Positions 12,967 to 46,250 of a stretch of DNA of 64,000 bases are shown here, in pieces. The stretch is from the NCBI GenBank assembly GCA_033816765.1, contig CM066291.1, forward strand, positions 3,720,001 through 3,784,000, given 5' to 3'. The DNA comes from Nothopassalora personata. Its lineage: Eukaryota > Ascomycota > Dothideomycetes > Mycosphaerellales > Mycosphaerellaceae. The position numbers were made by a program, and so were the translations under genes. Below the pieces are notes generated by a model, which worked only from the letters and a program-made list of their open reading frames with translations, did not search any database and was not told the origin of the DNA. How positions within the stretch are numbered: the first letter of the stretch is position 1; every line of letters starts with the position of its first letter.

Positions 12967-15900
12967 GCTTTAAACGCCCTCTACGATAGGAGACCGATAG
13001 AGTAAACGGAGAACACCCGCCCCTAGTAAAGTAAGTAGAGCCTGACGACCTTAGACCGCGAACGATACTATTAATGCCTTAGCTACTTATATAGGTAACG
13101 ATACCCTTAAGGTTAGTAAGCCGGAATACTACTATAGCGACCGAGACAAGTTTAACACTTAGGTTTCTTAGATAGATATATACTTCTTATTTAACTCTAT
13201 GCCTAAGAACCTTAAGCCTATCTTTACTACTACCTTCTTAAGAGGACGAGCATAGCATTAGGTTAAACTATTCCTTAGGAAATACCTAGACAGTAACAGA
13301 GAAGATAATGCCGACGGAATCTTTAGGTTATATAACTATCTTAAGTATGCTATAAAGAGCGTCTTTAGTGTCTCTAATAAGATTACTACTACCGTTCGTG
13401 TTATTTAGCATTTAACCTACAAGACATCTACTACCGAATATACTACTAAATTCTAGGAATACGCGTAACTTACCGATTAGGACGACGAAGCACCTTAAGT
13501 TATATACCAAAGAGGACTAAAGGAGTACATTAAGGACGAGTTAATAAGGGACGGTCGGAAGATTGATAGCTTAGGCGACCTCGTTAGAGTTACGATTAAT
13601 CTTAACGATAAGCTCAACGAGAGAGCTATAGAACGACGATACGACTCTAAGATATCCGGAAAGGCTAGATATATACTAGGCTACGATAACCGTAATAGAG
13701 GCTTCTACGATAACTATAATAATAAGCCTAGGGACAAACCGTACTACGGACTATAGCTAATAGAGCTCGATGTTACCGAGAAAGGTCGTAAGATTAGGAT
13801 TAGTAACGGGAATAGAGCATCCCGGAGTTCGAAAGAAACACGAACTTACTATAGATATAGTAAACCTAGCTACCTAGTAAGGGACTGCCGCGGTAAGAAT
13901 ATAGTACGCCGCGAATAGTTTAATATAATACAACCCCGAGCTAGTAAATCTAAGAGTAGCGTTAGATCTCGAGGAGATACCGACTATACTCGGAGAGTAG
14001 GGGAGAGAGCTAGTAATAGAAGCACGACGCCTCTCCTAGACCCCTTAGAAGGACGAGGAGGGTACTATAAGTAGTAAATAGTAGTGATTCTATTTAATGT
14101 AAAGAACTAACTACGATAGTTTAATATAATAACACAAAGAGTCGACTACGAGATTAAATCCGAATCTCGAAATAGTTATAGAAGCCTTTATTAGCGATTC
14201 TATTACTAAGACTCGTATTAAGTTTACTACGCCGCGAAGTTAGGCGTAGGGTATTAGCCTTAATAACTAAGAGGAACCCTAGGAGCAACGTATAGGTAAA
14301 ACGCTACGCTCCGAGAAGTAGACATCGACGAATCCTACTTTAACGATAATAGAAGCGATAAAGAAAACTAAGACCTAGGATAGAACAAACTATAGTTACC
14401 GGAACTATAGGAAGAAAGTTAAGAAACTACCGGGCTAGATACTATCGAGGAAGACTAGGATCCGGAAGAATTAAGCAAAGAAGATTCCTCCGAAGGAGAA
14501 GAGAGCGACACTAACGGCGACAATAAACAATTAACCTTTACGATCGATGCACCTAAGAAGCTATACGATATAATCGTTTATCTATAGAGAAGGTATAAAG
14601 GAATTCCCACTAAAAATATCGGGACGACGAATACTATACCTAAACGAGTTTGATAAAACCCTTAATATATTACGAGTAATAGCTTAGACATACCTAATTA
14701 TAAGTGTTATAGAGAATCTCGCGATAGTAGTTACCGAACGACTACCTCTAGGAAGTAGAGTAATAGGTACGGGATACCTTATACCGTTAGGAACATTTAT
14801 ATCGAATAAATTACGTAACGTAGTATAACACGTACGCGTACTCTATTAGAAACGTAGAAGATCTAGGAACGTTACTAAATGTAGGTACGGATATAGAAAG
14901 GCTCGCGCTAGGTTTAAGCGGAGGCCTCGAGACACGAAGTACGACGTTCTATATACGAATAGGGAAAAGGATTAACTCCCTAGGGATAAGCGACCGAAGG
15001 GAGTTATACGATATAGAAAAGGCTTGAGTATTACTAACGATAATAGTGTTTCGAACTAAGATTATTATTAACGGGCATAAGATAGATGCTATAATGGATT
15101 CTGGAGTAAGCGGGAACTTTACCTCCGAATTATTTATTATAAGATATAAGATCGCTACCTATAAAAAGAAAGAGGGTTACGAATTAATCGCGGTAGACGG
15201 ATTATCCTTACCTAGTATAGAGCGCGAGACGATACCGCTACTACTTGCTATCTAATAGTACTACGAGGAGATTATCTTAGATATTACTAATATATCTAGT
15301 TATAATATCGTACTAGGTATACCTTAGTTAAGAAAGCATAATCTAGTAATCGACTAGAGAAGAGGAGTACTTATATTTAGGGAATGCGACTGCATTATCG
15401 ACATTTAGCCTACGTAGCGGTAGCTTTTGCTAGTAGATAAGGTAAAGAGACAGCTAAACAGGATATAGCTTACGCCGAATAGAAGGATAGAAGAACTACC
15501 TTCGACCGGGATAGATACTAGCGTAGGGCCGCCGGGTTACGAAGTTACTAGTAGTAATAGAAGTAACGTACTATCGAAGGATACTAACATCTTAGAGTTA
15601 AGTATTCCTAAAGAGTATCGTAAGTAGTCGCGACTCTTTAAAGAGGAAAGAGGTAAGGATGCCTTACCTAAGCACTAACTATAGGATTATAAGATAAACA
15701 TTTAGCTAGGGAAAGAGCCTCTATAGGGACGCCTATATTAAATGTCTAAGAAAGAGTTATAGACCCTACGAGAATAGCTACAGGAGAAGCTAGCTAAAGG
15801 ATAGATAAGAAGATCTACCTTAAGTATAGGAACTCTATATATATTCGTTCTAAAAGCAAACGGGAAGTTACGACTCGTATAAGACTATAGGAAGTTAAAC

Positions 15901-17645
15901 GAGATTACGATTAAGAACCGATACCCGCTACCTAACATCGAAGAAGCATAAGATAGATTAACCGGATTAGACTAGTATACGAAGATTAACCTACGAGATG
16001 CCTTCTACGCTATAAGGATAGCGGAAGGAGACGAATAGAAAACCGCTTTTAGAATAAGATACGGAATTTACGAATTCTTAGATTTCTACTAATAGGATTA
16101 ACTAACGTACCCGCATCCTACTAGGACCTTGTTAATAAAACACTTAGAGACCTACTCGTCGTATACGTTATCGCCTACATAGACGACATACTAGTCTATA
16201 CGAAAGATCCCTTTAGAATTACATAAAACAAGTCTAGGATGTATTCGAACGACTTAAGCGTTTAGGATTGAAAACAGTACCCGAGAAATGCGAATTCTAT
16301 AAGAAAGAAGTTAAGTTCTTAGGCTTTATTATTAGTACTATAGGGATAACGATCGACCCTACGAAAACATAGTTAATTAGAGAATAGCTAGAACTAAAAA
16401 CAGTTAAGGACGTATAATTATTCCTTAGACTAGCGAACTATAACCGGAAATTTATTAAGGACTACGTAAAAACAGTAGTACTAATAACGATACTTACGAG
16501 AAAAGACATTACCTAGGAATAGGGAAAGGAATAGATTAAAGCGTTTAAGAAACTTAAGGAACAATACGCTTTAGCCCCTACGCTTCGACTATTCGATAGT
16601 AGTAAGGAAGTCTACATCGATACCGATACGTCTAATATAGCAATAGGCGCGTGTCTAATATAGACACACGATAGGTAGAGACACCTAGTAGCCTATTACT
16701 CCCGGAAAATAACCTATAGCGGAATAGAACTACGACATCTATAATAAAGAGCTTCTAGCTATTATTACTACTATATAACATTAGAGAGTATACGTCGAGG
16801 GCCTACCGAAGTTAACGATTCTTTCTAACTATAAGAATCTTACGTACTTTACGACGACGAAAGAACTTACCCGAAGGCAAGCCCGCTAGTCGGAGCTACT
16901 AGGATAGTATAAGTTCGAAATTAGATATACTCTAGGACGAGAAAATAGCCGCGCCGACGCGCTAAGCTAAAGAAGCGACTATATAGAAGGAAAAGAACTA
17001 GTGTAACATAAAGTACTTAGGATAAACCCCGACGGAAGTCTTAGCGCTAATATAAGAGAATTTAACAATATCGTAAGGACACTAGGCGACAAGGACGAAC
17101 AATTCCCTATATCGTAAGGAAAATACTAAGTACCTAAGGATTAAGAAGAAGAATATATACGATAACATTACGACGGACTAATATATAGGCACCCTAGAAC
17201 TTTAAAGACAATAGACCTAATATAACGTAGTTTCTTATTCCTATAGATAAGACTTAAGGTGTTACGCTATATTAAATAATACGTATACTACTAACGAAAC
17301 AAGGCTACGAGACATGTAAAATACGGTTACCTATAGTTTAGGACACTACCGACGAAACCATAGGACGAAGTTATAATAGACTTTATTACGAAACTCCTAC
17401 CGTTAAGAGATTAAGTTATAAAACAACTATACGACATAATACTAGTTATATTTAATAGACTTACGAAATACGTACACTTCATTCCTACATTAGAAAAATA
17501 TAATATAGAGTAGCTCGGATACCTCGTACTAGATAGACCTATCCGGTACTACGGATTCCCTTAAGCGTTTATAACGGATAGAGATAAGCTCTTTACATCG
17601 AACTACTAGAAGACGCTTATAGGAACGATCGGAATTAAATATAAG
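12546..17645 (+). mobile_element. Ty3/gypsy chromovirus-like element 1, RIP-degraded, truncated in integrase
   Basis: A 5' LTR (12546-12966) is followed by a plus-strand gag relic at about 13120-13670, with a zinc knuckle near 13848-13897 whose Cys codons are partly Tyr. The protease relic at 15046-15255 keeps the MDSG active-site motif. Reverse transcriptase at about 15720-16480 keeps YIDDILVYT near 16180, RNase H lies at about 16560-16990, and the start of integrase follows. It stops at 17645, where the LTR of element 2 begins; the matching place in element 2 is inside the integrase. Gln and Trp codons are repeatedly TAG/TAA, so nothing is functional. No 3' LTR of this copy is present. Confidence 0.8.
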
Positions 17646-18005
17646 TATTACGGAATAATTCCTAGGGACCCTGGAATTATAACGATAAGACAAACACGTA
17701 ACTTATCCTACCTAAGCGCTTAGACTTAGAGCGATTAGACTACTTATGCTTAGACTAATTAGACTGCTTATGCTTAGAATAATTAGACTAATTACCGAGA
17801 TCTACGAATATCTTTTGTATTTAGGAACGCTAGAAACCCTTATAGTTCTAATACGTTTAACTTATGTTACTATCTTACTAATTAGAATATAACTCTTATT
17901 CTAATTATTTATCTTCGCTTAGCTTACTTTAGCCTCTCTAAAGAATACCGCTACGTGACTTAACTTATCTCTCCTTTAAGACTAGCCCTAGAACGACATA
18001 TAACA
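17646..18005 (+). repeat. 5' LTR of element 2
   Basis: 360 bp, from TATTACGGAATAATTCC to ATATAACA. Its U3 half matches the solo LTR at 24882-25261, including a repeated TAGACTAATTAGACT unit. Its right half matches the 3' LTR of element 2. Confidence 0.8.
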
Positions 18006-21000
18006 CTTTAAACGCCCTTAGGATAAGCGCTACTTAAGTAGCTAGTAGGGGAACACCCGCCCCTAGCGAAGTAGGAAGCATCCGCCGTACGCTACTATAA
18101 TAGACTACTACGAAGGACGATAAGTCTAATAACGATAACGAGCCTACTCTAAGGAAGAACGACGTTAAGGCTACTAAGCTAGACCTCTTCTATAGAGATA
18201 GGGCTAAGTTCGACGACTAGATTAATTAGATAGATATATATCTTATGTTTAACCTAGTCGATGCTAATAAAAGAACTATCTTCGCTATAACGTACCTTCG
18301 CGAAAGTACGTAGAACTAGATTAAACCTTACCTTAAGGAATACCTTGAAGGTATAGAACGATTAGACCCTACCGGAATATTTAGGAGCTATACACTCTTT
18401 AAAGAAAAGATAAAATTAATCTTTAGAACCTCGAACGAAGTCTAATAGGCTATACAAATCATTTAACACCTAAAATAGAAGACGTCTACTTTAGAGTATA
18501 CCGCTAAATTCGAAGAATACGGACAAATTACCGGATAGGACTAGACGGCGTTAATAACTATGTTCCGACGTAGACTTAAGGACTCCGTTAAGGACGAGTT
18601 AATAAGATACGGGGGACGGATTACTAATCTCGAAGAGCTAATAAAGGCGTCGATTAATATCGATAACTAGCTCTAGGAACGACACTAGGAAAAGAAATAC
18701 GACTCTAAAGTAGGAGGTATAGTAGGATACGCTCCGGATCGTAGACCCTTAGGAGGATATATTACGAAGGGAGAATTCTTACGATAAAGCTAGCCCTACT
18801 ATAGACTATAGCTAATGGAACTAGACGTTACCTAACGAGGACGGAGGATCGATAAGAGTAGGGGCTACGGAAAGCCCTTTAAAGAAAAAGGAAAACTTAT
18901 ATACTATGCCTATAGTAAGGAAGGTTATATAGCGCGGGATTGCTACGGTAAGAATATAGTACGCCGCGAGCAGTTTAATATAATATAACTAAAGGTAGGC
19001 AAATCTAGGAGTAGTATTAGACCCCGATAATTTAACTATACCTAGAGAGTAGAGGAGAAGGATAGTAACCGGGTTACGACGCCTCTCCTAGACCCCTTAT
19101 TAAGCGAGGACTTATCCAAAGAAGAAGAGAGCGATACCGACGACGAAAACAAAGTATATATATTTACGGTAGATACGCTAAAGAAACTCTATAAGTTAAT
19201 TATCTACCTCTAACGAAGGTACGAAGAATTCCTACTAAAGTTCTTAGGGAAACGATACCTAAACCCTAATAAATTCGATAAGATACTCGATATAATGAGG
19301 GGTATAAGTATAGGGCTACCTAACTATAAACAATACTAAGAACTTAGCTAAAGCGGTTATCGAACAACTACCTATAGGAAGCCGAATAACAGATACCGGA
19401 TACCTAATACCGGTAGGAACTTTCGTCTTAAACGAACTACGAATAGTAGTATAGTATATACGGGCTCTCTACTTAGAATCGTAGAAGATCTAGGAACGTA
19501 ATAGACTATAAGTATAGATATAGGGTAACGGGCTATAGGTTCTAGCCGAAGCCTCTAGGCACGAAGTATAGCGAACTATATACTATTCGGGAAAAGGATT
19601 AGCTCCCTAGGAATAAGCGACCGGAGGGAGTTATATAATACTTAGGCTTACGTATCGACATTAAATATAGTTTTCTAGACATAAGCAATCGTTAACGGAC
19701 ATAAGACTAGTGTTATAATCGACTTAGGAGTAGCGGGGAATTTTATCTCCGAGTCTTTTATAAGAAGAAACGGGTTAGCTACCCTAAAGAAGAAATAGAG
19801 TTACGAGTTAATCGCGGTAGACGAATTATCGTTACCTAGCGTAGAATAGAAGACGATACTATTGCTACTAGCTATCTAATAGCACTACGAGAATATTACC
19901 TTAGATGTTACTAATATAGCTAGTTATAACATAGTATTAGGTATACCTTAGTTAAGAAAGCATAATCTAGTAATCGACTAGAGAAGAGGAGTACTTATAT
20001 TTAGGGAATGCGATTGCGTTATCGACATTTAGCCTACGTATCGACAGCGGACGATAGTAGATAAGGTAAGGAAATAGCTTAACGCATTCGAGCTTACGCC
20101 GAATAGAAGGAATTAAGAACTACCTTCGACCGGGATAGACACTAGCGTAGGGCCGCCGGGTTACGAAGTTACTAGTAGTAATAGAAGTAACGTACTATCG
20201 AAGGATACTAACATCTTAGAGTTAAGTATTCCTAAGGAGTATCGTAAGTAGTCGCGACTCTTTAAAGAGGAAAGAGGTAAGGATACCTTACCTAAGTACT
20301 AACTATAGGATTATAAGATAAACATTTAGCTATAGAAAGAGCCTCTATAGGGACACCTATATTAAATGTCTAAGAAAGAGCTATAGACCCTACGAGAATA
20401 GCTAAAGGAGAAGCTAGCTAAAGGATAGATAAGAAGATCTACCTTAAGTATAGGAACTCTATATATATTCGTTCTAAAAGTAAACGGGAAGTTACGACTC
20501 GTATAAGACTATAGGAAGTTAAACGAGATTACGATTAAGAACTGATACCCGCTACCTAACATTAAAGAAGTATAAGATAGATTAACCGGATCGGACTAGT
20601 ATACTAAGATTAACCTACGAGATGCCTTCTACGCTATACGAATAGTAGAAGGAGAAGAATAGAAAACCGCTTTTAGAATAAGATACGGACTCTACGAATT
20701 CTTAGTTATGCTAATAGGATTAACTAACGTACCCGCATCCTACTAGGACCTTGTTAACGAAACACTTAGAGACCTACTCGACGTATACGTTATCGCCTAT
20801 ATAGACGACATACTAGTCTATACGAAAGGATCCCTATAGGAACATATAAGACAAGTCTAGGACGTCTTTAAACGACTTACGTAATTAGGATTTAAGACGG
20901 CACCTAAGAAATGCGAATTCTATAAGAAAGAAGTTGAATTCTTAGGCTTTATTATTAGTACTATAGGGATAACGATCGACCCTACGAAAACATAGTTAAT

Positions 21001-23159
21001 TAGAGAATAGCTAGAACTAAAAACAGTTAAGGACGTATAATTATTCCTTAGATTAGCGAACTACAACCGGAAATTTATTAAGGACTACGTAAAGATAGTA
21101 GCACTAATAACGATACTTACGAGAAAAGACGTTACCTAGAAATAGAGAAAGGAACAAATTAAAGCGTTTAAGAAACTTAAGGAATAATACGCTTTAGCCC
21201 CTACGCTTCGATTATTCGATAGTAGTAAGGAAGTCTATATCGAGACTAATACGTCTAATATAGCAATAGGCGCGTGTCTAACATAGGCATACAATAGGAA
21301 AAGACACCTAGTAGCCTATTACTCCCGGAAAATAACTATAGCGGAACAGAACTACGATATCTATAATAAAGAGCTTCTAGCTATTATTACTACTATATAA
21401 CATTAGAGAGTATACGTCGAGGGCCTACCGAAGTTAACGATTCTTTCTAACTATAAGAATCTTACGTACTTTAGACGACGAAAGAACTTACCTAAAGGCA
21501 AGCCCGCTAGTCGGAGCTACTAGGGTAATATAAGTTCGACATTAAATATACTCTAGGAAAGGAGAATAGCCGCGCTAATGCGCTAAGCCAAAGAAGCGAC
21601 TATATAGAAGGGAAAGAACTAGTATAACATAAAATACTAAAGACGAACTCTATAGAAGGGAAAGAACTAGTATAACATAAAATACTAAAGACGAACCCTA
21701 ACGGAAGCCTTAGTACTAACACTAGAGAATTTAATAACATCGTACGGATATTAGGCAATAAGGACGAACAATTCCCTATATTGTAAGGAAAATACTAAGT
21801 ACTAAAGGATCGAGAAGAAGAATGTATACGATAACATTATAACGGACTAACTTACGGACACCCTAGAACTTTAAAGACAATAGACCTAATATAGCGTAGC
21901 TTCTTATTCCTATAGATAAGATAAAAGGTACTACGCTATATTAAGTAATGTATGCACTGTTAACGAAACAAGGCTACAAGACATGCAAAATACAGTTACC
22001 TACAGTTTAGGACACTACTAATAAAACCATAGAACGAAGTTATAATAGACTTTATTATAAAACTCCTACCGTTAAGAGACTAAGTTACGAAATAACTATA
22101 CGACATAATACTAGTTATAGTTAATAGACTTACGAAATACGTATACTTTATTCCTACATCGGAAACATACAATGTAAAATAGCTCGGATACCTTATACTA
22201 GATAGACTTATCCGATACTATAGATTCCCCTAAGCGATTATAATAGATAGAGATAAGCTATTTACATTAAATTACTAGAAAACGCTTATAGGAACGATCG
22301 GAATTAAACATAAGCTATTAATAGCATATTATCTAGAAATAGACGGATAGACCGAGAGGATAAATTAGACGCTAGAACAATACCTACGGCACTACGTTAA
22401 CTACGTATAAGACAACTAGGTTTTATTACTGCTAATAGCGTAGATCGTACTAAATAACTACAAATCGGAGACAACTTTAACGATACTATTTTATACGAAC
22501 TTTAGTAAAGATCCTAACTTATTTAGAACACCTAGATCCTATCTATAGGCCGAAAGAGCAATCGTAACGACGGATACTCTTAAGGAAGTACATAAAGAAA
22601 CACGTAAGGCGATCCAAGATATATAATAAAAACTGTCTTAATAACAGTAAGATATAGGGAAAACGGCACCTCTACTAAAAGAGGGGGATAAGGTCTATCT
22701 CCTTGTAGAAAACTTAAGAATAAGAAGATAGACTAAGAAACTAGATTACGTTAAGGTCGGACTATTTTCTATTGATAAAGTTATAGGACTAGTTAACTAC
22801 CGCCTACAACTACTATACGACGCTAAAATCTACCTAGTCTTCTATATCTCTAAGCTAGAACCCGCGGACGCTAAAACACCTTACTAAGAAAGCTTCTATT
22901 TTAAACTAGAAGTAGAAAACGAATTTAAAGTCGAAAAGATCCTAGATAAGAAAGGTTAGCGATATCTTATTAAGTAGAAAGGATATAACGAATCGGAGAA
23001 GACCTAGGAACTAGAAAAGAACCTACAAAATTGTTAATAAAAGATCTAGGAATATAAGAAAGAAAGACACGTACCTAAGAACTAGAGGGAGTAGGATCCG
23101 AGGAAGATACAATAGCCTCCTCTAGAGTAGGGTAGGCCTAGAGAGCATTATCCGGAATT

Positions 23160-23700
23160 AGCGATAACTCCTCCTACAAAGAAATCGGCATTTAGAAGAC
23201 CGCTTGTAATTCCTTAGGAGTACCCTCGGGAACGAGAAGACACGACGAAGGGGTAGAAAGCGCTTCTATACCCTCGGCTAGAAGTTTCTATAAATCCTCG
23301 AAATCCTTCGCGATCGCTTTCTCCTCGCGCTCTTTAGTAACGCGCAATTGTTTACGTAAACGATAAACCTTTAACATTGCCTCCGTTACCTTCTCTTTAG
23401 TATCGTCGAGTTCCCGCTTAAGCTTTCGACGTTAATTACGGAGTCTCTCCTATTCGGTCTAGGTAATAGTTACGTTACACTTTACGCCTTTCCGGACGTA
23501 TTCCGAGTAATACCTAAATCGAACGTCTACTATACATCGCGGACGACTCTTCCCTTTAGAAACCCGCGCCTTTTAATAACCGGTATATAGAGACTGCATT
23601 TCGCGACCTTCGGACTCGATACCTAACGCTTAACGTTCTTAACGCTCTTAACGAGTTAGCGGCTCTCTACTTATAGTACGATAAAAAACAGACATACCGA
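23160..23700 (-). pseudogene. RIP-destroyed antisense gene relic (Cys-cluster plus coiled coil) in element 2
   Basis: On the minus strand, opposite to gag-pol, a frame beginning near 23682 retains a recognisable relative of the intact antisense protein at 40598-41237. Shared features in order are a Cys-rich region with several Cys codons now Tyr (RYYSEYVRKGVKC against GRCSECNEHNIKGC), a TE-ERLR/AEWKSLQ segment, and a long helix (VYRLRKQLRVTKEREEKAIA against ARLRRQLELHEKREGEAIA). At least seven in-frame TAG/TAA stops are present. It sits between chromodomain and polypurine tract, the same place as in the intact element, so the antisense gene belongs to the family and was not picked up recently. 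Confidence 0.65.
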
Positions 23701-23742
23701 GAAAATTAAGACTCGGGACGAGCTTAGCTAAGAGGGGGATAG

Positions 23743-24162
23743 TATTACGGATTTAAAGAACGAGAGAAAGAGAGTCCCGTAAGATACGTACTAGGAATAT
23801 AGAAACTAGAAGATAAGGTCTAATTGCTTAGATCTCTAACGCGATTAGGTTACGTACGCGACCGTAGCGAACCTACATAGTCAAACACGTAAAGCTAGGC
23901 GACTAGACGACTAGACGACCGGTCGACTAGTCGGATAGTTAACTATAGAGCTAAGACATAGCAGTGTCTCCTTTATATTTAGGAACGCTAAAAACCCTTA
24001 TAGTTCTAATGCGTTTAACTTATGTTACTATCTTACTAATTAGAATATACTCTTATCCCAATTATTTATCTTCGCTTAGCTCGCTTTAGCCTCTCTAAAG
24101 AATACCGCTACGTGACTTAACTTATCTCTCTTTTGAGACTAGCCCTAGAACGAGATATAACA
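23743..24162 (+). repeat. 3' LTR of element 2
   Basis: 420 bp, starting TATTACGG right after the polypurine tract and ending GATATAACA. The right half is nearly the same as in the 5' LTR, but the left (U3) half is unrelated to it, which is abnormal for two LTRs of one insertion. Confidence 0.8.
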
Positions 24163-24881
24163 CTTCTTAATTTCTAGGACTTTATTAGATAGATCTTTCT
24201 TAAGAAGCTCTACGCCTTCTAGTAGTTTAATGTATAAAGGTCTATTAATGTTAGGGTTTATAAATACTATTTTAATATTAATCTATCTCCTCTTCTAGCT
24301 AAGAACTATATATAGGGCTAGGAGAATTCTACTTATTAGTAGCCTTAGGGTTAGAGTAAAGGTCTTAATATAGTCTATACCTTACTTTTAAGTAAATGCC
24401 TTAGCTACCTATCTAGCTCTACGCTTCTTAATAGACCTATTAGGAAGATACTTATAGTATAGGATCTATTTTCCTATAAGTAGTTTCCTACCCTTAGGGA
24501 CTTTCTATAATAGGATCTATATAATATATTCTATGTCTTCTAAGGAGTTAAATTCCTTTCTAATTGCCCTAATCTATTTAGCTCTATTAGGTCTGTTTAA
24601 TGCTTTAGTTAGGGTAGTAGGATCTATAAGCTTCCATTTCTTTATATTATCTATAGCTAATATAGCGAATACTTTCTTGAGTTTACTATAATTATAATTA
24701 GATCTATTCTGTCTTAAACTTCTCCTTATTAGCTTAGGATAGACCTTAGCTTACTTAGTCTTTATAGGCTTATAAGTCCTATCTCTCTTCCTCTTACTAA
24801 TATATAGGGTAGGGTAGAATAGTGTTATAGCCTAATTAGGGTCTTCTTATATAGCTAGGGCTATGTCTTCTTAGGTAGTAG
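24163..24881 (-). mobile_element. Ty1/copia reverse transcriptase fragment, RIP-degraded
   Basis: The minus strand reads a copia-type reverse transcriptase start: IRAIRKEFNSLED, PKGRKLL and IGK, a RARQVAKAFTQ-like segment with a stop, GIDYIKTFTLTLR and LLALYIV. It is broken by stops and joins, across the solo LTR, to the integrase part at 25262-26529. Confidence 0.7.
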
Positions 24882-25261
24882 TGTTAGGTTTAGTATAACC
24901 TAATAATATTACAAGTTAAGAAGATAAGCTTAATCGGTTTTGTTCTCGGGCCGATAGGAAATTAAGGGAGAGTAATAAAGCAGTAGCTATCTTATCTTAT
25001 AAAGACTAAGTAGCAGTAAGGTAGAGGTTAGGTTATAGTGTATTCTAAACAGTAATATTAAACAGTAAGTTAAACGTATCGAAACTATAAGGGATTCTTA
25101 GCGTTCCTAAACATAAAGGAGATTTGTAGATCTCGGTAATTAGTCTAATTAGTCTAAGCATAAGTAGTCTAATCGCCCTAAGTCTAAGCGCTTAGGTAGG
25201 ATAAGTTACGTGCTCGTCTCGTTATTATAATTCTAGGGCCTATAGGAATCATTCCGTAATA
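24882..25261 (-). repeat. Solo LTR of Ty3/gypsy family A with 5-bp target-site duplication
   Basis: 380 bp from TGTTAGGTTTAG to CCGTAATA as read on the plus strand; element orientation is minus. AGTAG at 24877-24881 is repeated exactly at 25262-25266. Both flanks belong to one copia element, so this is a nested insertion later reduced to a solo LTR by LTR-LTR recombination. Confidence 0.88.
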
Positions 25262-26529
25262 AGTAGGAGCTACTTCTTTATATTATAGCTCTTTAGACTA
25301 AGAAGTCTAAGGCTTATGCTCTATAGGAGATTATTCTTAGAGCTAGGGGATATATCTCTAAATAGTAGATGTAAATCTTCTATTATATACTCCCCCTAAG
25401 ACTAACCTTAGTTAGGGGAGTCTTATTACGAAGCCCTTTATGCTTTAGGTTAGTTACTATGCTACTATAGCTCCCCCTCTAGCTATATAGCTCCCCCTAA
25501 AGGTTTATATAGTTAGTAACTCACTTCTAGCGCGTATAGCGCTTTATAAGGTATATAAATGCCCTTATGTTTATAGTAAGGGTTCTTAGGGTCTTCCTAG
25601 GGATGTCTTAGGAAGGTAATCTTATTATCTAGGACAGCATTCTTATTACTAGTAGTAAGCTAGGAGCTCTTAATAGTCTGTCCTATCTACTCCCCCTAAG
25701 TAACCTACTTACCTATAGGGATTTAGTATTGCGTGTTCTATAGGAAATCCTTATTAAAAGTTATATATGGGGTATAGGCTATCTTATAGACCTATTTACC
25801 CTTCTCCTACTATAGCTTCTATAGTAGGTAGTTAGTTAATAAACTACCCTAGAATCCTATATACTACTATATATCCGCTCTTATAGAGAACTTCTTAGAC
25901 TTAGTATAATTGTCGTTATATTTATATACTTTAATATTCTAGGTCTTTTTTAAAGTCCTTCTATAGTATATTCTTTATTATTAAGTTGAAGAGGCGGTTC
26001 GTAATATAGTATACAAAGTCTATAGCTAGGGGCTAGAGGTTCTATAGTAAGCTAGAGTCTATAAGCATAGCTCTAGCCCTGTTAATAATAACTTTATTAG
26101 AAGCTTTAGCAATTCTATTTTGCTTAGGAGTATATAGTAATACAAAGTCCTATCTAATCCCTTTATATTAGGTACATATTCTAAGTTTAATATTATTAAA
26201 CTCCCTACTACTATCTAAGAACTAGATCTTAGGCGTCTTCTTATAGTAGTTCTATATTATAGTAAGCTAAGTTTTAATTACTACTAGAGTATTACTCTTC
26301 TTTAGAAGTAGTAAGCACTATCTTATCCTAGTTTTAGCGTATATAAGCATAAGGTAGTATACGTAACTATTATAAGAGATTAGAGTAATTAGACTAATAA
26401 GGTTAGTATAGATTTTATCTAATGCCTCTAGTATAGGTCTCCTAGGGATTCTTAGAATAACTCTCTATAACCTTATAAGCTTATAAGTCTTAGAATGTCC
26501 TAACTCTATAGTATTAATATCTTCTAGGC
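25262..26529 (-). mobile_element. Ty1/copia integrase fragment, RIP-degraded
   Basis: The minus strand at about 25900-26480 retains the copia integrase core: EFNNIKLRICTQYKGIRQDF with stops, LLYTPKQNRIAKASNK, VIINRARAMLIDSSL and LAIDFVYYITNRL. The stretch left of it would be the integrase C-terminus and linker to reverse transcriptase. It is the continuation of 24163-24881, split by the solo LTR and ended on the right by the LTR at 26530. Confidence 0.7.
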
Positions 26530-26727
26530 TATAAGGACCGTAAGGCTATAAGGGGATATCGTAATGTATAGTACGCCTATAATCTTCTAATCGTAGATAA
26601 ACTAAAGCTTACTTTCTTCTATAGACGCTATACGCGTCTCCTAGTGTATATATACGCGTTACGTACGGCATGCTAAGCCGGGCATAGCCGCATTATATAT
26701 AAGGGTTAGCTATAGGCTACCCTTATA
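26530..26727 (-). repeat. 3' LTR of family B element
   Basis: 198 bp with inverted termini TATAAGG...CCTTATA, RIP forms of TGTAAGG...CCTTACA. It matches the plus-strand LTR at 31403-31600 in reverse complement over the full 198 bp. Confidence 0.8.
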
Positions 26728-27499
26728 GCTGCCTCCCCTTCTAGGACGAGCTACCCTTAGCTCGCGGCTTTAGAAGGTTTCTATATAAGTAATGTATCCG
26801 CTTCTCGTAGATTCCGTTACTATACGACCCGCCTACGGGTCTCGTAAGTGTCGTTATCGGGGTGTAGGTAGGTAAAGTTATAGTTACTAGGTTAACTAAC
26901 TCGAGGGTTTAAGAAGCGTACCCTCTCCCTCCTTTTCCTTTTTTTTCTTATATTACGTCCTCGTAGCATACCGTACCCGTACTACTAGTGATCTACTAGC
27001 TCCTCGCTAGCGACTATCTAGCGACCCGCTAGTACTACTATAGCTTTAGACGAAGCTATCTAAGACTAGCTCCGCTAGGAGACCCTTATAGGGGGCCTAT
27101 TAGTACTACTAACACTATTACTAGTACTACTACTATAGATGTCTAGCGCGCTTAGCGTACTAGACACGCTAGCGAAGCGTAAGTTTAGCGTACTAGGGCC
27201 GTAGACCCCTAAGTTATTACTAGCTAGGCGCCTAGGTATAGGCATTAAGATATATATACGGTATCTCCTATACTTCGTAACTAGTAAGTATTCGCTACGC
27301 TCTTCGCTTACGATACGCTTACTAATAGTATAGTAGACGAGTAGGATACGTGTAATTGTATTACTACCGGCGAGTTACTTAAGAAGTATAGGCGCTATAG
27401 AGATAATAGGCACCCCTATATTAGTAATACTAGCGTCGCTATCGCGTAGATAGTAGCTCGTCTACGTACCGCTCGCGCCTAGCGCGATAAGCTTATCTA

Positions 27500-28090
27500 G
27501 GGGCTTAGTAACCCTATTACTAAGTAAGAGTAGGATACTCTAGACTAGTAGTACAAGGTCTACGCCTAGCTAGGCGAGTAGATCTTAGAGGTAAGTACTA
27601 CGCCTCGCTAGCGCTCTCTACGCTCGTTACGTAAGGTATACTATCGCTCCCTATATAAATCGGCTAATCTCCTCGTAGGCTAAGAGGCAGTTTAGTACCT
27701 ATAAGAATAAGCGCCTTGGCGATACCCGCGTACGGTTTGCCGGCGCCTCCGCTACTACTACCCCCTCCTCCGCCGCCGCTACTACGTCCGTAGTTCTATA
27801 GTAAGAGTAGAATAGGGCCCTTAATAGGCTCTTCGAGCTCGGCCGTACTATAAGTACTATATATATCGTATACGTGTCCTATACTAACCGTAGTTATAGT
27901 TCCTATAGGCTAGAAACATCGATACTACTATAGCCGATAGGGCCTTCCTACTACTAGCCCTACGGGGCGAGTATAATAAGGAGGATAATAAGGATAATAA
28001 TAACGAGTAATCGCGCGCTCCGCGTATACTAGCCGCCTACTACGCGCCTATCTTTTATCTACGTAGCGCCGTAGCGCGCCTAGAAAAGTT
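27500..28090 (+). pseudogene. Candidate antisense gene relic in family B chromovirus
   Basis: The plus strand, opposite to the element's gag-pol, has a frame that reads protein-like apart from TAG/TAA stops. It shows a region of regularly placed Tyr codons that may be former Cys (RYVRYTIAPYINR, then QFSTYKNKRLGD near 27690), an Ala/Thr/Ser/Pro-rich linker near 27740-27800, and an RLFELGRTIST segment. Position and orientation match the antisense gene of the other chromovirus family, but I see no clear residue-by-residue similarity. Boundaries are approximate. Confidence 0.35.
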
Positions 28091-39634: not shown

Positions 39635-40205
39635 GTGCGCGTCGCGCACGGTCGCACATCAGGCACGCGACGCGTTTTCTTGGCTATTCTTCTCACCTTT
39701 ATATCTTACTACACAATGGACGTATATAACTATGCGATAGCTTATTTGAATCAGCAAGATAAGCCTAATATCGCTGCGGCCGCTAGGAAGTTTGGTGTTA
39801 AGCGCTCGGCACTTAGCAAGCGCTAGAACAAGCTTACTAAAAAATCCACCTTAAAGCACGAAGAACAGCGCATTCTTAACGACTAGCAAGAGCGCACTCT
39901 TGTAGACAATCTCAACACCCTATCTAAGCGCGGCCTACTACCTACACCCTTAATGCTCCTTAATTTCGTCGAGGATATCGCTAAAAAGCGTCCCTATCGA
40001 ACCTAGGTGTCTAGATTCTGCAATAGGCACTAGGACAAGATTCTTTCTATTTACCTTAAGCTATTCGATAAGGAACGAAAGAATGCAGACAGTAAGCATC
40101 ACCTCGAGTCCTACTTTCGATTACAGCAAGAGAAGATTAAGAAGTACGCTATTAAGCCTACAAACACCTATAATATAGACGAGAAAGGCGTACTTATCGG
40201 CTTCC
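39635..40205 (+). mobile_element. Pogo/Fot1-type transposase, N-terminal fragment, lightly RIP-mutated
   Basis: ATG at 39716 begins MDVYNYAIAYLNQQDKPNIA and continues AARKFGVKRSALSKR, the helix-turn-helix (psq-like) start of Fot1/pogo transposases. The Tc5-type binding domain and the beginning of the catalytic domain (NTYNIDEKGVLIGF, ending at 40205) follow. In-frame TAGs replace former Trp/Gln codons (for example 39827). It ends exactly where the LTR at 40206 starts, and the remainder of the catalytic domain is not found beyond 44688. GC-rich inverted motifs near 39635-39670 (GTGCGCGTCGCGCAC) may be its terminal repeat. Confidence 0.75.
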
Positions 40206-40524
40206 TGTTAGGAACCGCTGTACGTTATCACAACTCGGGCTTGGATCTTTGCAGGGATGTCTCAATCAGTTATGAAGGTAGTGGTTCCAAACAGTATATG
40301 GTGTATACTTAAAATGAGTTGAGCACGAGGCTCCTATCTACTTGCAAAAGAGCGTCGTCTATATAGTGCCGTGTCTTGGCGTGATCTTTCCTGCTCTCTC
40401 TGCTCTCTCTGCTCTCTCGAGAGAGCACCCGAGAGCACTGAGAGCACTCTGCATACCGGGTGCATCCGCTGGTCTGCTGGCATCGATTGGTTGGCTACGG
40501 GCTTCCCCAGACCGATCCGTAACA
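40206..40524 (-). repeat. LTR 1 of the tandem (3' LTR in element sense)
   Basis: 319 bp; minus-strand termini TGTTACGGATC...GGTTCCTAACA. It contains an 18-bp perfect palindrome, TGCTCTCTCGAGAGAGCA, at 40410-40427 and a plus-strand TATA-like box CTATATAG at about 40359-40366, upstream of the antisense gene. Confidence 0.9.
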
Positions 40525-40597
40525 CCATCCCCCTTCTAGCCTAGCTTCGTCCCGAAGCTTACAAGATGTCATTCCTTTCCAACTTTGTCATCCAACG

Positions 40598-41237
40598 ATG
40601 TCTTCTTCTTCCCTTTCCCTTCCCGTCACTAAAACCAGTACGCATCGTCGCAAGAAGCTTGCCAAGTTCATTCGAGAGAACGGGATTACTATGGTCAAGT
40701 CGTGCTCTTTCTGCACTCGTGAGAAAAAGGTGTGCCGTGTCCACATCAAATCGGGCCGCTGTTCGGAGTGCAACGAACACAACATCAAGGGTTGTGACGT
40801 GCGAGTCACTCCTGCTGAGTGGAAGTCCCTTCAGTCCGTACGGGACAAGCTCACCCGTGAGCTTGAAGCGGTCCGTCATGATCTCGTTCGCAAGAGTGAA
40901 GAGATCGCGGCAGCCTATGCGAAGGAGGCGCGTCTTCGTCGTCAGCTTGAGCTGCACGAAAAGCGCGAGGGCGAGGCGATCGCTGTCGAGGAGGCGAGCA
41001 TCCAAGTGTTAGAACAAGGGGAGCTCGAGGCCGCTCCGCCTTCCATCCCGGAAGACTGGTGGTTTCCTGCCTCCGATCCTTCGGTCTTCGACCCTAGCTT
41101 GTCCTTGGATGGGAATCTCCTCCTTCCTGAATCCTTCTCGGAGTTGGTCTCGTCGTAAGTTCGTCCTTTATCTGTTTTCCGTGTCGTAGTGTTGACTTCT
41201 GTGTCCTAGGTCATCAAATCAAGAAGCCGCTGTTTGA
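40598..41237 (+). CDS. Antisense retroelement protein: Zn2Cys6-like cluster plus coiled coil, copy 1
   Basis: Exons 40598-41154 and 41210-41237 give 194 residues. The 55-nt intron has GTAAGT, branch TTGAC and acceptor CCTAG; without splicing the frame stops at 41156. Residues about 35-65 have the spacing C-x2-C-x6-C-x8-C-x2-C-x7-C, beginning CSFCTREKKVC and ending GRCSECNEHNIKGC, which fits the fungal Zn2Cys6 binuclear cluster. Residues about 75-135 are a charged helix suited to a coiled coil (RDKLTRELEAVRHDLVRKSE). The C-terminal part is acidic and rich in Pro, Trp and Ser, possibly an activation region. The N-terminus is basic (HRRKKLAKF). It ends 25 bp from the gag stop, convergent with gag, and starts 73 bp from the LTR, probably driven by antisense promoter activity of that LTR. 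An earlier ATG at 40566 lies in another frame. Function unknown; DNA binding is inference. Confidence 0.8.
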
Positions 41238-41262: not shown

Positions 41263-42261
41263 CTAGGCAGATTTCGAGAGAAAGCTCTCGCATTCCTGGT
41301 ATGCATTCTCTTCGCGAATCATTGCGTTGAACTCGCGGCTAACTATGTTCTTTTTCTTGCAGTTCCTTGCATAATGGCCTTGCTCGCCACATACGTAGCA
41401 GGTGGAACCTTTGCTCTTCAGCCCCCTTCCTGTCCTACGTTCCGTTACGTCCAATTCCATTGGGTCTCCGTAACCATTAGGGTCCTGACTTCTGGCCTTG
41501 AAGCCCCCTCTTCCGCCCGCGGCGGGTCTCTGGTATCCAGGCTGTACGTGTCGGTCGTACCTCAACTCCTGGAGCCTTTCGTCGATCTCCTTTGCTGCCT
41601 TGATCATCGCCCCTAGCGTAACGACGCTGGCGTTTCGGGATAGTTCGGCTTTGACGTTGTCTTTCAGCCCGAGGTAGAACTGCGATCGCAAAGCTGCGTC
41701 GTTCCATTCCAGGTCGGCGGCATATCCTTGGAATTCTGAGGCGTACAGCGCTACAGAAGTAGTCTGTCGAAGTTGTCGGATATGTCGGTCGGCGTATACC
41801 TCCTCATTTGGTATCCCGTATAGATCATCGAGTTTCGTCTCAAACTCGTCGTAGTCGTGGAAAATTTTTCGAGTTTCCGTTTTCGGTGTTTCTCCCTCGC
41901 CCTGGTTGTGTAGCCAGTCCTTGAGGTATGGTCGGAATCCTCTAGCTGCTTTTCCTCGTAGGAAGGATGCGGCGTACAAGACCTTGCTGGCCTCGCCTTG
42001 AAACTGGTGTGCGTTGAAGTGAAGGTACAACTGAACCTGCAGTTGAAAAGCCTCCAGTTTGTCCTTGGTCCCGTCGAACGTCTCCGGCGTAGACACCTTA
42101 GGTGCACGGTGGTGGTCCAATGGGTTCAGCATACCCATAGGAGTGTTGTTGTTCTTGCTGCTTCCTGTAATCGACATTTCGCTCATTCGTTCCGTGATGC
42201 CAGTTGACTGTGGCTGTTGTCGTGACGGACTCCGGGTAGCGTCTCTCCCAGACATATGCAA
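41263..42261 (-). CDS. Gag protein of non-autonomous LTR retrotransposon, copy 1
   Basis: An intact 332-residue frame starting 26 bp inside the LTR. The N-terminus is Ser/Thr/Gln-rich. The central Retrotrans_gag-type capsid domain spans about 55-235 and includes TPETFDGTKDKLEAFQLQVQ, YAASFLRGKAARGF and YASEFQGYAADLEW. A Gly/Arg-rich linker (RPAAGGRGGFKAR) precedes one CCHC zinc knuckle, CYVCGEQGHYARNC, near 289-302. It ends with no protease or polymerase fused or following. It should form the particle that packages element RNA, with reverse transcriptase and integrase supplied by a related autonomous element; that dependence is inference. The capsid pattern resembles the degraded gag of the chromovirus at 17646-24162. 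Confidence 0.92.
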   Translation of the reverse strand: MHMSGRDATRSPSRQQPQSTGITERMSEMSITGSSKNNNTPMGMLNPLDHHRAPKVSTPETFDGTKDKLEAFQLQVQLYLHFNAHQFQGEASKVLYAASFLRGKAARGFRPYLKDWLHNQGEGETPKTETRKIFHDYDEFETKLDDLYGIPNEEVYADRHIRQLRQTTSVALYASEFQGYAADLEWNDAALRSQFYLGLKDNVKAELSRNASVVTLGAMIKAAKEIDERLQELRYDRHVQPGYQRPAAGGRGGFKARSQDPNGYGDPMELDVTERRTGRGLKSKGSTCYVCGEQGHYARNCKKKNIVSREFNAMIREENAYQECESFLSKSA

Positions 42262-42287
42262 AGGGCCCTGGTGGTGGTGCTCAAAGT

Positions 42288-42606
42288 TGTTAGGAACCGC
42301 TGTACGTTATCACAACTCGGGCTTGGATCTTTGCAGGGATGTCTCAATCAGTTATGAAGGTAGTGGTTCCAAACAGTATATGGTGTATACTTAAAATGAG
42401 TTGAGCACGAGGCTCCTATCTACTTGCAAAAGAGCGTCGTCTATATAGTGCCGTGTCTTGGCGTGATCTTTCCTGCTCTCTCTGCTCTCTCTGCTCTCTC
42501 GAGAGAGCACCCGAGAGCACTGAGAGCACTCTGCATATCGGGTGCATCCGCTGGTCTGCTGGCATCGATTGGTTGGCTACGGGCTTCCCCAGACCGATCC
42601 GTAACA
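42288..42606 (-). repeat. LTR 2 of the tandem, shared by both units
   Basis: 319 bp. It is the 5' LTR of unit 1 and the 3' LTR of unit 2. It differs from LTR 1 at a C/T site (CATACCGGG against CATATCGGG). Confidence 0.9.
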
Positions 42607-42679
42607 CCATCCCCCTTCTAGCCTAGCTTCGTCCCGAAGCTTACAAGATGTCATTCCTTTCCAACTTTGTCATCCAACG

Positions 42680-43319
42680 ATGTCTTCTTCTTCCCTTTCC
42701 CTTCCCGTCACCAAAACCAGTACGCATCGTCGCAAGAAGCTTGCCAAGTTCATTCGAGAGAACGGGATTACTATGGTCAAGTCGTGCTCTTTCTGCACTC
42801 GTGAGAAAAAGGTGTGCCGTGTCCACATCAAATCGGGCCGCTGTTCGGAGTGCAACGAACACAACATCAAGGGTTGTGACGTGCGAGTCACTCCTGCTGA
42901 GTGGAAGTCCCTTCAGTCCGTACGGGACAAGCTCACCCGTGAGCTTGAAGCGGTCCGTCATGATCTCGTTCGCAAGAGTGAAGAGATCGCGGCAGCCTAT
43001 GCGAAGGAGGCGCGTCTTCGTCGTCAGCTTGAGCTGCACGAAAAGCGCGAGGGCGAGGCGATCGCTGTCGAGGAGGCGAGCATCCAAGTGTTAGAACAAG
43101 GGGAGCTCGAGGCCGCTCCGCCTTCCATCCCGGAAGACTGGTGGTTTCCTGCCTCCGATCCTTCGGTCTTCGACCCTAGCTTGTCCTTGGATGGGAATCT
43201 CCTCCTTCCTGAATCCTTCTCGGAGTTGGTCTCGTCGTAAGTTCGTCCTTTATCTGTTTTCCGTGTCGTAATGTTGACTTCTGTGTCCTAGGTCATCAAA
43301 TCAAGAAGCCGCTGTTTGA
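42680..43319 (+). CDS. Antisense retroelement protein: Zn2Cys6-like cluster plus coiled coil, copy 2
   Basis: Second copy, 2082 bp downstream. Exons are 42680-43236 and 43292-43319. The exon 1 protein is identical to copy 1, including all six Cys. A C/T difference near 42712 is silent. One intron position (G in copy 1, A in copy 2, within GTCGTARTG) differs without touching the splice signals. Both copies remain open, which argues for recent duplication or selection on the antisense frame. Confidence 0.8.
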
Positions 43320-43344: not shown

Positions 43345-44343
43345 CTAGGCAGATTTCGAGAGAAAGCTCTCGCATTCCTGGTATGCATTCTCTTCGCGAA
43401 TCATTGCGTTGAACTCGCGGCTAACTATGTTCTTTTTCTTGCAGTTCCTTGCATAATGGCCTTGCTCGCCACATACGTAGCAGGTGGAACCTTTGCTCTT
43501 CAGCCCCCTTCCTGTCCTACGTTCCGTTACGTCCAATTCCATTGGGTCTCCGTAACCATTAGGGTCCTGACTTCTGGCCTTGAAGCCCCCTCTTCCGCCC
43601 GCGGCGGGTCTCTGGTATCCAGGCTGTACGTGTCGGTCGTACCTCAACTCCTGGAGCCTTTCGTCGATCTCCTTTGCTGCCTTGATCATCGCCCCTAGCG
43701 TAACGACGCTGGCGTTTCGGGATAGTTCGGCTTTGACGTTGTCTTTCAGCCCGAGGTAGAACTGCGATCGCAAAGCTGCGTCGTTCCATTCCAGGTCGGC
43801 GGCATATCCTTGGAATTCTGAGGCGTACAGCGCTACAGAAGTAGTCTGTCGAAGTTGTCGGATATGTCGGTCGGCGTATACCTCCTCATTTGGTATCCCG
43901 TATAGATCATCGAGTTTCGTCTCAAACTCGTCGTAGTCGTGGAAAATTTTTCGAGTTTCCGTTTTCGGTGTTTCTCCCTCGCCCTGGTTGTGTAGCCAGT
44001 CCTTGAGGTATGGTCGGAATCCTCTAGCTGCTTTTCCTCGTAGGAAGGATGCGGCGTACAAGACCTTGCTGGCCTCGCCTTGAAACTGGTGTGCGTTGAA
44101 GTGAAGGTACAACTGAACCTGCAGTTGAAAAGCCTCCAGTTTGTCCTTGGTCCCGTCGAACGTCTCCGGCGTAGACACCTTAGGTGCACGGTGGTGGTCC
44201 AATGGGTTCAGCATACCCATAGGAGTGTTGTTGTTCTTGCTGCTTCCTGTAATCGACATTTCGCTCATTCGTTCCGTGATGCCAGTTGACTGTGGCTGTT
44301 GTCGTGACGGACTCCGGGTAGCGTCTCTCCCAGACATATGCAA
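43345..44343 (-). CDS. Gag protein of non-autonomous LTR retrotransposon, copy 2
   Basis: A 332-residue frame identical at the protein level to copy 1, with the same capsid domain and CCHC knuckle. It starts 26 bp inside LTR 3. Confidence 0.92.
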   Translation of the reverse strand: MHMSGRDATRSPSRQQPQSTGITERMSEMSITGSSKNNNTPMGMLNPLDHHRAPKVSTPETFDGTKDKLEAFQLQVQLYLHFNAHQFQGEASKVLYAASFLRGKAARGFRPYLKDWLHNQGEGETPKTETRKIFHDYDEFETKLDDLYGIPNEEVYADRHIRQLRQTTSVALYASEFQGYAADLEWNDAALRSQFYLGLKDNVKAELSRNASVVTLGAMIKAAKEIDERLQELRYDRHVQPGYQRPAAGGRGGFKARSQDPNGYGDPMELDVTERRTGRGLKSKGSTCYVCGEQGHYARNCKKKNIVSREFNAMIREENAYQECESFLSKSA

Positions 44344-44369
44344 AGGGCCCTGGTGGTGGTGCTCAAAGT

Positions 44370-44688
44370 TGTTAGGAACCGCTGTACGTTATCACAACTC
44401 GGGCTTGGATCTTTGCAGGGATGTCTCAATCAGTTATGAAGGTAGTGGTTCCAAACAGTATATGGTGTATACTTAAAATGAGTTGAGCACGAGGCTCCTA
44501 TCTACTTGCAAAAGAGCGTCGTCTATATAGTGCCGTGTCTTGGCGTGATCTTTCCTGCTCTCTCTGCTCTCTCTGCTCTCTCGAGAGAGCACCCGAGAGC
44601 ACTGAGAGCACTCTGCATATCGGGTGCATCCGCTGGTCTGCTGGCATCGATTGGTTGGCTACGGGCTTCCCCAGACCGATCCGTAACA
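44370..44688 (-). repeat. LTR 3 of the tandem (5' LTR in element sense)
   Basis: 319 bp. It shares the T variant with LTR 2. Its right flank (GTAACTTCC) belongs to RIP-degraded DNA unrelated to the left flank of LTR 1. Confidence 0.9.
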
Positions 44689-46250
44689 GTAACTTCCGAA
44701 AAGATGCGGACGAGGCTTACTTAGGTCTAAGTAGTATATAAGTGTATTAGCTATCGGCTATCTTCTATAACATTATTCGGTCCTCCGACTTAGTACCCTC
44801 TACTATTAAGATAGGACGCGCACTACTACTAAGCTAACGAATGTTACGTAACTACTTATCTCTAAGCTTAACTAACGGTACGATTTGAATAGTAATGCGA
44901 TCTATAAGAACACTATACGTATAAAATATTATACTCTTACTAAACCCGGTCCGTGCAATTAATAGGGTATCTCCGCTACTAAAAATTAGACGCCGTAGTA
45001 CGCGGACCTACTAGTAGTATAGCTCGAATCTATATAAGTTATATAGATACTAATAGATAACACGCTACTAGATGTTTACATAGCGCACGTCTCGAGCTTT
45101 ATCTATAGCCTCCTTTAGACGCTCTCGGGGATAACGATGTCGAATGGCATCGAGACGAGAGGCTAAGGATGTCGTCGTATCTAGCGTATACGGCTTTAGA
45201 CGTTTCGCCTTCGCCCGCTTACCTCTCCTATCGGCTTTTCTAGACGACGTATTCGCTACTAAAGGCATGTTCGAAGCGTGCTAAAGCGTGCTAAAGCGTG
45301 TAGATCGGTACTAGCCCGTAAAAAGGGTGTCGTTAAGAAGCGAGCGTAGAGATCCGTTAAGCTACTAAGACTACTACGCGTACCGCCTACTACTATAGAT
45401 AACGCGGTATACGGCACCTAGCGCTGCCCTCTTATTAGCTAAACCGTACGAAACGGTACTAACCCGTTAAGACCTATATAAATGGGGGTAAATAGAGTGT
45501 TTAAAACACTACGTAAACTACGCTCTTATTACGTACTAATGTTCTACTATAGCGACATAACTACACTAGCACGACTACGAAGCGTACGATTAACTAGGAA
45601 GGTATACGTATAGCATACGGCACAATAGACAATTGCGCGCTATGTAATAGACTTAATAGTTATATATCTACCTAGCTTCGCGTCTTAGCGCGCCTACCGA
45701 ACACAATGCACTACCTTTAATATTAACAACTCTTACTTATTTAGCCTAAGGAATCGAATAGGGGTAGTAGTATACTCGTAAGAGGCGTTAGTAGCTCGCT
45801 AGCTAATATTAGTTTAAACTGTATAAAGTCGGTTTTACATTCGAGGATGTACTTCGTACATAACGCGCTATTGGATCGTTACGTTCTCGACGCCGTTGTA
45901 ATCTCTACTATCGGCGCTATTATTTAAATCTATAGGAGCTCGGCCGGGCGTAGTAATCGGTTGCTATCGCGTACTAAAATATGGTGGTAGTGCTGCATAG
46001 CTTTAAGCTACACTAAAACAAGCCCTATTCGATCTTAGACGCTTCGCAAAGGCTCGCTGCTGCGGAATCACCCGATTGGCTGAACGGTGCTGAACCGTGC
46101 TAGCCCGTGATGATCGGAGCTAAACGGTGCCGAGCCGAGAAAGAAGCGACTGAGCTTGCTGAGGTAAGAAGAGCTAGGAGGTAGGTCACAGCGATAACGT
46201 GATCGTGCCAAGACGCGGGCGGAACGTGTAGCCGATCGTGTTAGAACTAT
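44689..46250. mobile_element. RIP-degraded transposon remnant, type unknown
   Basis: Strong CpA/TpG depletion and stops in all frames. One 66-codon minus-strand frame (45268-45068) survives; it is Lys/Arg-rich (SSRKADRRGKRAKAKRLK) and could be a DNA-binding N-terminus. A motif like CGGTACTAGCCCGT recurs near 45304, 45449 and 46093, and AAGCGTGCTA is tandemly repeated at 45274-45298. No transposase core recognised. From about 46000 the composition returns to normal. Confidence 0.5.

Follow-up and report, generated by a model that had tools for sequence, protein, structure and literature searches.

A conserved zinc-cluster-like antisense gene of gag-only and autonomous LTR retrotransposons in Nothopassalora personata, and the adjoining U3 repeat array as the possible target of its product

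The 64,000-nucleotide stretch of Nothopassalora personata DNA analysed here (contig CM066291.1, positions 3,720,001 to 3,784,000, assembly GCA_033816765.1; hereafter the window) contains between 40206 and 44688 a tandem dimer of gag-only long terminal repeat (LTR) retrotransposons with three 319-bp LTRs. The two 2,082-bp units differ by 3 bases, and each carries gag and, convergent with it and 104 bp away, a gene on the opposite strand, the antisense gene, which is the subject of this report. An earlier sequence-only reading had described one gag-only element with such a convergent gene; the gene and its orientation are as described, the element being the dimer. The features are as follows, in window coordinates.

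40206..40524, minus strand: LTR 1, 319 bp, the 3' LTR with respect to gag; 73 bp separate it from the start of the antisense gene
40359..40366, no strand: palindromic TATA-like box CTATATAG, probably that of the gag promoter
40383..40446, no strand: U3 array of LTR 1, TGATC/TGCTC sites at 40383, 40393, 40402 and 40411, inverted sites at 40423, 40433 and 40442; the same array in LTR 2 (chain from 42465) and LTR 3 (from 44547)
40525..40537, also 42607-42619, minus strand: polypurine tract
40543..40559, also 42625-42641, no strand: inverted repeat AGCTTCG-TCC-CGAAGCT, its arms differing among families with the pairing kept
40598..41158, plus strand: antisense gene copy 1, 186 residues; cysteine module 36-66, helix 72-145, acidic tail
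41155..41209, plus strand: putative intron giving a 194-residue form
41263..42255, minus strand: gag copy 1, 330 residues; Retrotrans_gag domain and zinc knuckle
42277..42284, also 44359-44366, minus strand: primer-site stretch complementary to the element's own R (match in R TTGAGCAC, 42401-42408)
42288..42606, minus strand: LTR 2, common to both units
42680..43240, plus strand: antisense gene copy 2, a single synonymous difference from copy 1
43345..44337, minus strand: gag copy 2, identical to copy 1
44370..44688, minus strand: LTR 3, the 5' LTR in the gag sense

The gag product matches Pfam-type profiles (PF03732, E 8.3e-11; zf-CCHC, E 6.9e-06), and a domain search found no pol domains in the window element. 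The LTRs have TG...CA ends, the polypurine tract adjoins the 3' LTR and the primer site is complementary over 8-9 nt (8 nt in the window element) to the element's own R, with TTGAGCAC in gag-only families and TTGAACGC in autonomous ones. These characters fit a Ty3/gypsy element that would prime itself, for which Tf1 is the comparison system. CTTCC can be placed by eye, tentatively, on both flanks if 4 extra bases (44689-44692) are allowed. The TATA-like box had been taken as pointing towards the antisense gene; it is palindromic, however, and its distance of 33-40 bp from the R stretch complementary to the primer site suits a promoter for gag, on the opposite strand, to which it probably belongs; it is not specific evidence for an antisense promoter.

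The antisense open reading frame (ORF) begins with an ATG 73 bp from the LTR end and encodes 186 residues followed by a stop codon. Cysteines at residues 36, 39, 46, 55, 58 and 66 give the Zn2Cys6-like spacing C-X2-C-X6-C-X8-C-X2-C-X7-C, a long helix is predicted for residues 72-145, and the last 42 residues hold seven aspartates or glutamates and no lysine or arginine. Start position, cysteine spacing and acidic tail agree with the first description, and the coiled coil named there corresponds to the helix, through which two copies of the protein may pair. The length of 194 residues given before is reached only if the putative 55-bp intron, whose donor-like GTAAGT overlaps the stop codon, is spliced out. 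The same overlap, with an AG acceptor-like site about 50-60 bp further on, is seen in the gag-only families F1, F6, F8 and F18 (numbered below), and putative splicing would append SSNQEAAV in F1 and F18; GTAAGT lies 14-15 bp beyond the stop codon in F3 and F9, and none is found there in F2 and F7.

A search with the single sequence gave 8 homologs at E <= 0.001. At E <= 0.01, a profile of 12 sequences gave at least 147, scoring only the 7,998 candidates having most words in common, and a second profile gave 198. The hosts named among the listed homologs, most of which are without a name, are Elasticomyces, Aureobasidium, Bathelium, Hortaea, Sporormia, Cercospora and Elsinoe, and the UniRef label of the last three is Zn(2)-C6 fungal-type. 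The host genome (54.5 Mb, 40 contigs) was searched with four family proteins, the best 150 of 725-859 candidates being scored each time, so that copy counts are lower bounds; many copies have intact frames and many are interrupted by stops, of which most are TAG, the pattern expected from C-to-T decay. Families were numbered from F1 (the window element) to F18, F4 and F5 being dropped as copies of F3, and eleven were read as DNA (F1, F2, F3, F6, F7, F8, F9, F10, F11, F15 and F18), F10, F11 and F15 only in part. Among 36 pairs from nine families, the ratio of nonsynonymous to synonymous change (dN/dS, or Ka/Ks) was 0.14-0.55 in all 34 with at least 50 aligned codons, values obtained on saturated synonymous sites with dS set to 3 in ten pairs. 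The homolog counts, the intact diverged families and a dN/dS below 1 rule out chance: the antisense gene is a conserved coding gene. Conservation of the frame beyond chance and a Ka/Ks away from 1 were two points on which the sequence-only reading had let its proposal depend.

These data bear on the idea that the antisense transcript rather than the protein is what matters, double-stranded RNA formed with the gag end tuning silencing. In its favour, the two genes are convergent and 104 bp apart, and the accessible part of PMC7264820 discusses antisense transcripts that overlap; set against this, the protein is conserved with dN/dS below 1, albeit on saturated synonymous sites, and its six cysteines are near-invariant across 126 aligned sequences. 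We regard a role of the RNA as very improbable.

In four elements that contain a pol frame, L031, L032, L033 and L035, the antisense gene is flanked by pol, with which it is convergent, and by the 3' LTR, the arrangement that had been envisaged for homologs. The pol of L031, in which the domains were checked, contains reverse transcriptase, RNase H, integrase and a chromodomain and is that of a Ty3/gypsy chromovirus. The two LTRs of each of the four elements are identical where aligned, and those of F2 differ in the copy number of an 80-bp repeat. The gene brtn of the Boty-like elements of Botrytis cinerea, also fungal Ty3/gypsy elements with a chromodomain, likewise lies antisense between pol and the 3' LTR (Zhao et al. 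2011, as described in citing papers). The likeness is one of position and layout; U3 arrays, cassette exchange and gag-only carriers are not mentioned for brtn in those descriptions, and there is no Botrytis among the named homologs listed. In the available portions of PMC7264820 and PMC11963269, antisense ORFs beside the 3' LTR are described for Boty and for the plant elements Grande, RIRE2 and Retand, so that the earlier view of such a gene as rare is not supported in the form given. The genes of maize Grande, rice RIRE2 and bean PvRetro13 have the same position and orientation as ours but, unlike it, are reported there without similarity to known proteins and with no mention of a zinc cluster; their function is stated as not known, and a nuclear location is reported for the Grande protein (PMC7264820). 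The antisense TRP28 ORFs of Retand belong, in the portion of PMC11963269 available, to plant, non-chromovirus elements, unlike ours, and the TRP28 domain PF04195 was not found in our protein at E <= 1 in the domain search.

A lax Zn2Cys6 spacing pattern matches 149 of the 156 retrieved proteins, and zinc-cluster-like cysteines together with an acidic tail are present in most homologs. The best matches of the model among solved structures are Zn2Cys6 domains, though weak ones. Fungal Zn2Cys6 transcription factors (Pho7, Hap1, Ppr1, Leu3 and Lac9) are alike in cysteine spacing, in this weak fold match and in having a helix after the module, whereas the present protein falls below the Pfam cut-off, has about 186 residues and is encoded by a retrotransposon. 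From these resemblances, the protein may bind zinc and DNA.

The U3 part of the LTR has GA[T/G]C sites mostly 8-10 bp apart beside the TATA box in 10 of the 11 families. With respect to gag, the array lies upstream of the TATA-like box and starts 9-25 bp away from it; its other side faces the antisense gene. The most repeated 6-mer of whole LTRs is equalled in 0 of 300 shuffles for F1, F2, F7 and F9 and in 1 of 300 for F3, and is weak in F6 (27 of 300) and F8 (26 of 300). A prediction for unseen families, GA[T/G]CA at 9-10 bp, was noted before F10, F11 and F15 were fetched. F11 conforms to it; the eleven sites of F10 are for the most part spaced by 8 bp, and F15 does not conform, its site ending in C. 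The prediction was afterwards relaxed to a core GA[T/G]C at 8-10 bp and, because this was done on seeing these three families, the test on them is partly after the fact. With the relaxed core, F10 has 13 sites in U3 (reached in 1 of 1,000 shuffles), F11 has 10 (0 of 1,000) and F15 has 7 (23 of 1,000); for the other families, the shuffles per 1,000 reaching the observed count are 0 in F2, F7, F8 and F9, 1 in F6, 5 in F3 and 151 in F1. Gaps of 8-10 bp number 42 out of 72 in the first seven families against 8.9 for random placement, and 19 out of 27 in F10, F11 and F15 against 3.7, in each case reached in 0 of 2,000 placements. The R-U5 halves show no such enrichment (their site counts are reached in 40-961 of 1,000 shuffles, and no 6-mer repeat stands out), and the three LTRs are the only places in the 64-kb window with a chain of at least four sites. 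The bases flanking the core vary with the family: GAGAGCA in F1, CAGATCA in F2, CTGATCA in F7 and F9, and ACAGATCC in F15.

Between F3 and F7, identity is 98.3% in gag-pol (4,472 bp) and 98.1% in R-U5 (206 bp), and their U3s and antisense genes give no blastn match (E 1e-5) except for 48 bp at the polypurine tract. F9, read outside pol, has an R-U5 99.5% identical to that of F7 together with a third antisense gene and U3. The 5' LTR and gag part of the gag-only families F1, F6 and F8 is 95.5-97.2% identical and the 3' part 82-86%; their antisense genes are unalignable by blastn. Among 121 gag copies scored at 98-100% identity, 69 adjoin a known antisense type: F1 (30), F8 (13), F15 (11), F10 (6), F6 (3), F17 (3, 94% like F6 over residues 1-125), F12 (2) and F14 (1). 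The remaining 52 are without an assigned type; one of these, on being read, holds F18, whose antisense protein is only distantly related (hhalign probability 74%, E 2.9e-5, one pair). Backbones that are nearly identical in gag(-pol) thus carry antisense genes unrelated to one another, and the neighbouring U3 has been exchanged along with the gene; the best reading is that the two move as a cassette by recombination. In crapaud of Podospora anserina, subfamilies differ in U3 with R and U5 alike, and recombination and U3 diversification are discussed (PMC10787394, accessible part); a figure legend there gives two ORFs, gag and pol, and no antisense gene is mentioned, unlike the elements here. 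Antisense genes in this position are a known type, from plants and Boty; new, as far as searched, are the zinc-cluster-like protein, the adjoining U3 arrays and the exchange of both as a cassette.

The layout, the array and the acidic tail lead us to read the antisense protein as a self-encoded regulator that would act on its own LTR through the U3 array, a reading to which we give a probability of about 0.5. If expressed, the protein would contact DNA through the cysteine module, pair with a second copy through the long helix and contact the transcription machinery through the acidic tail; it would bind the repeated sites in the U3 of its own LTR and set LTR transcription, more likely as an activator than as a repressor. 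In the 5' LTR the array directly precedes the TATA box of gag, and in the 3' LTR it lies upstream of the antisense gene, so that one array could serve both transcription units. A role at the LTR promoter had been suggested before; the arrays, which that suggestion did not mention, lend it support. HBZ of human T-cell leukaemia virus type 1 (HTLV-1) is a basic leucine zipper (bZIP) protein of a retrovirus, read antisense from the 3' LTR, that regulates sense transcription. HBZ, named in the accessible part of PMC11963269, is a likeness in way of working, with no family relation claimed.

A number of results weigh against self-regulation through the array. Pfam Zn_clus (PF00172) gives 10.4 bits against a cut-off of 21, so that the DNA-binding Zn2Cys6 identity first proposed keeps its weak structural matches and lacks the profile match; Zn_clus matches 5 of the 12 members of alignment A2 at E <= 10 (best E 0.064) and is not found at E <= 1 in F8, F9 and F18. 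A PROSITE-type Zn2Cys6 pattern, with basic residues in the first loop, fits F1, only 10 of the 156 homologs and none of F2, F3, F6-F9 and F18. The GA[T/G]C count of F1 is not significant (151 of 1,000 shuffles), its repeated 6-mer being so (0 of 300), and the repeated 6-mer of F8 is not significant (73 of 300). Seven of the ten arrays reach four sites in a chain, F2, F11 and F15 reaching three only, and F18, a zinc-cluster-like gene without a regular array, has no chain, seven irregular sites (32 of 1,000 shuffles) and no repeated 6-mer in its U3. In a Mantel test on ten families, identity of the cysteine module and similarity of the U3 arrays are uncorrelated (r -0.08, p 0.69), and the LTRs of F6 and F8 are 90.7% alike in the first 223 bp, including part of the array, with proteins that differ. 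Finally, the gene-U3 linkage alone is no proof of function, because one template switch in reverse transcription would shift both without functional coupling.

The absence of correlation and the array part that F6 and F8 share without sharing the protein would suit U3 arrays that bind a host transcription factor, the antisense protein having some other task, for example the import into the nucleus, the tethering to chromatin or the handling of nucleic acids; the role of plant antisense ORFs is discussed near nuclear import in the available part of PMC7264820. We think this unlikely: ten families have the core and the spacing in common although their U3s cannot be aligned in part, and F18, with the most distant antisense gene, is without a regular array despite a gag of 98% identity (one case only). 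The null Mantel test and the half-array of F6 and F8 would also suit a protein that binds U3 with all members recognising the shared GA[T/G]C core and cross-regulating, the linkage being a by-product of template switching with no cognate pairing. The core is indeed common to ten families, and in crapaud, where R-U5 is conserved while U3 differs, template-switch recombination has been proposed (PMC10787394, accessible part); the bases flanking the core differ by family, however, and we consider such cross-regulation unlikely.

Self-regulation has a doubtful extension. Lambdoid phages are kept apart by immunity regions and, by analogy, a zinc-cluster-type regulator with its own U3 operator array might form an exchangeable immunity-like cassette, a swap changing which copies are switched on or off; families on one gag(-pol) backbone would then be insulated from each other. 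A single genome holds many intact and diverse copies of the gene family, next to a compact candidate target, which makes its function testable. If confirmed, the protein would count as a transcription factor that a retrotransposon encodes and that acts on the element's own LTR, and modular exchange could explain the many families on one gag(-pol) backbone.

An inverted repeat lies by the polypurine tract in all 11 families, with six different arm sequences of 6-8 pairs and mostly a TCC centre; shuffled F1 leaders equal its score in 0.35%. It could be an RNA hairpin or a palindromic DNA site.

Nine F3-like copies have one TAG each in the antisense gene, its position being read only in L076 (C1:185797), and a copy carrying a stop may have multiplied. 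One F3 copy also has an in-frame TAG in its second gag-side frame (L032:9358-9360, minus strand), at a position where the F7 copy has glutamine. A tRNA-like gene is present in F3 and F9 (L032:5351-5428, plus; L033:4447-4524, minus; L071:1123-1197, plus; L072:172-246, minus), on the strand of the antisense gene and near the 3' end of pol. It scores 50.6 and 52.5 bits against Rfam tRNA and has the anticodon CTA (Pyl according to ARAGORN). By eye, changes in the acceptor stem come in pairs that preserve the pairing. The anticodon arm is imperfect, and no cloverleaf was obtained with RNAfold. Forty copies were scored in the host genome, and none is found in L031, L034, L035, L036, L085 or the window. 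A putative UAG-reading tRNA amid many TAG-broken elements would, if true, be striking.

The tandem element seems, by eye, to be hosted by a TAG-rich degenerate transposase-like frame (39640-40205). Elsewhere in the window, 12001-28000 has a G+C content of 0.37-0.38 against 0.41-0.55 in the remaining 4-kb bins. A longer tandem array of the same kind, with six consecutive gag copies at a spacing of 2,056 bp, lies at C12:1356314-1367583 of the host genome.
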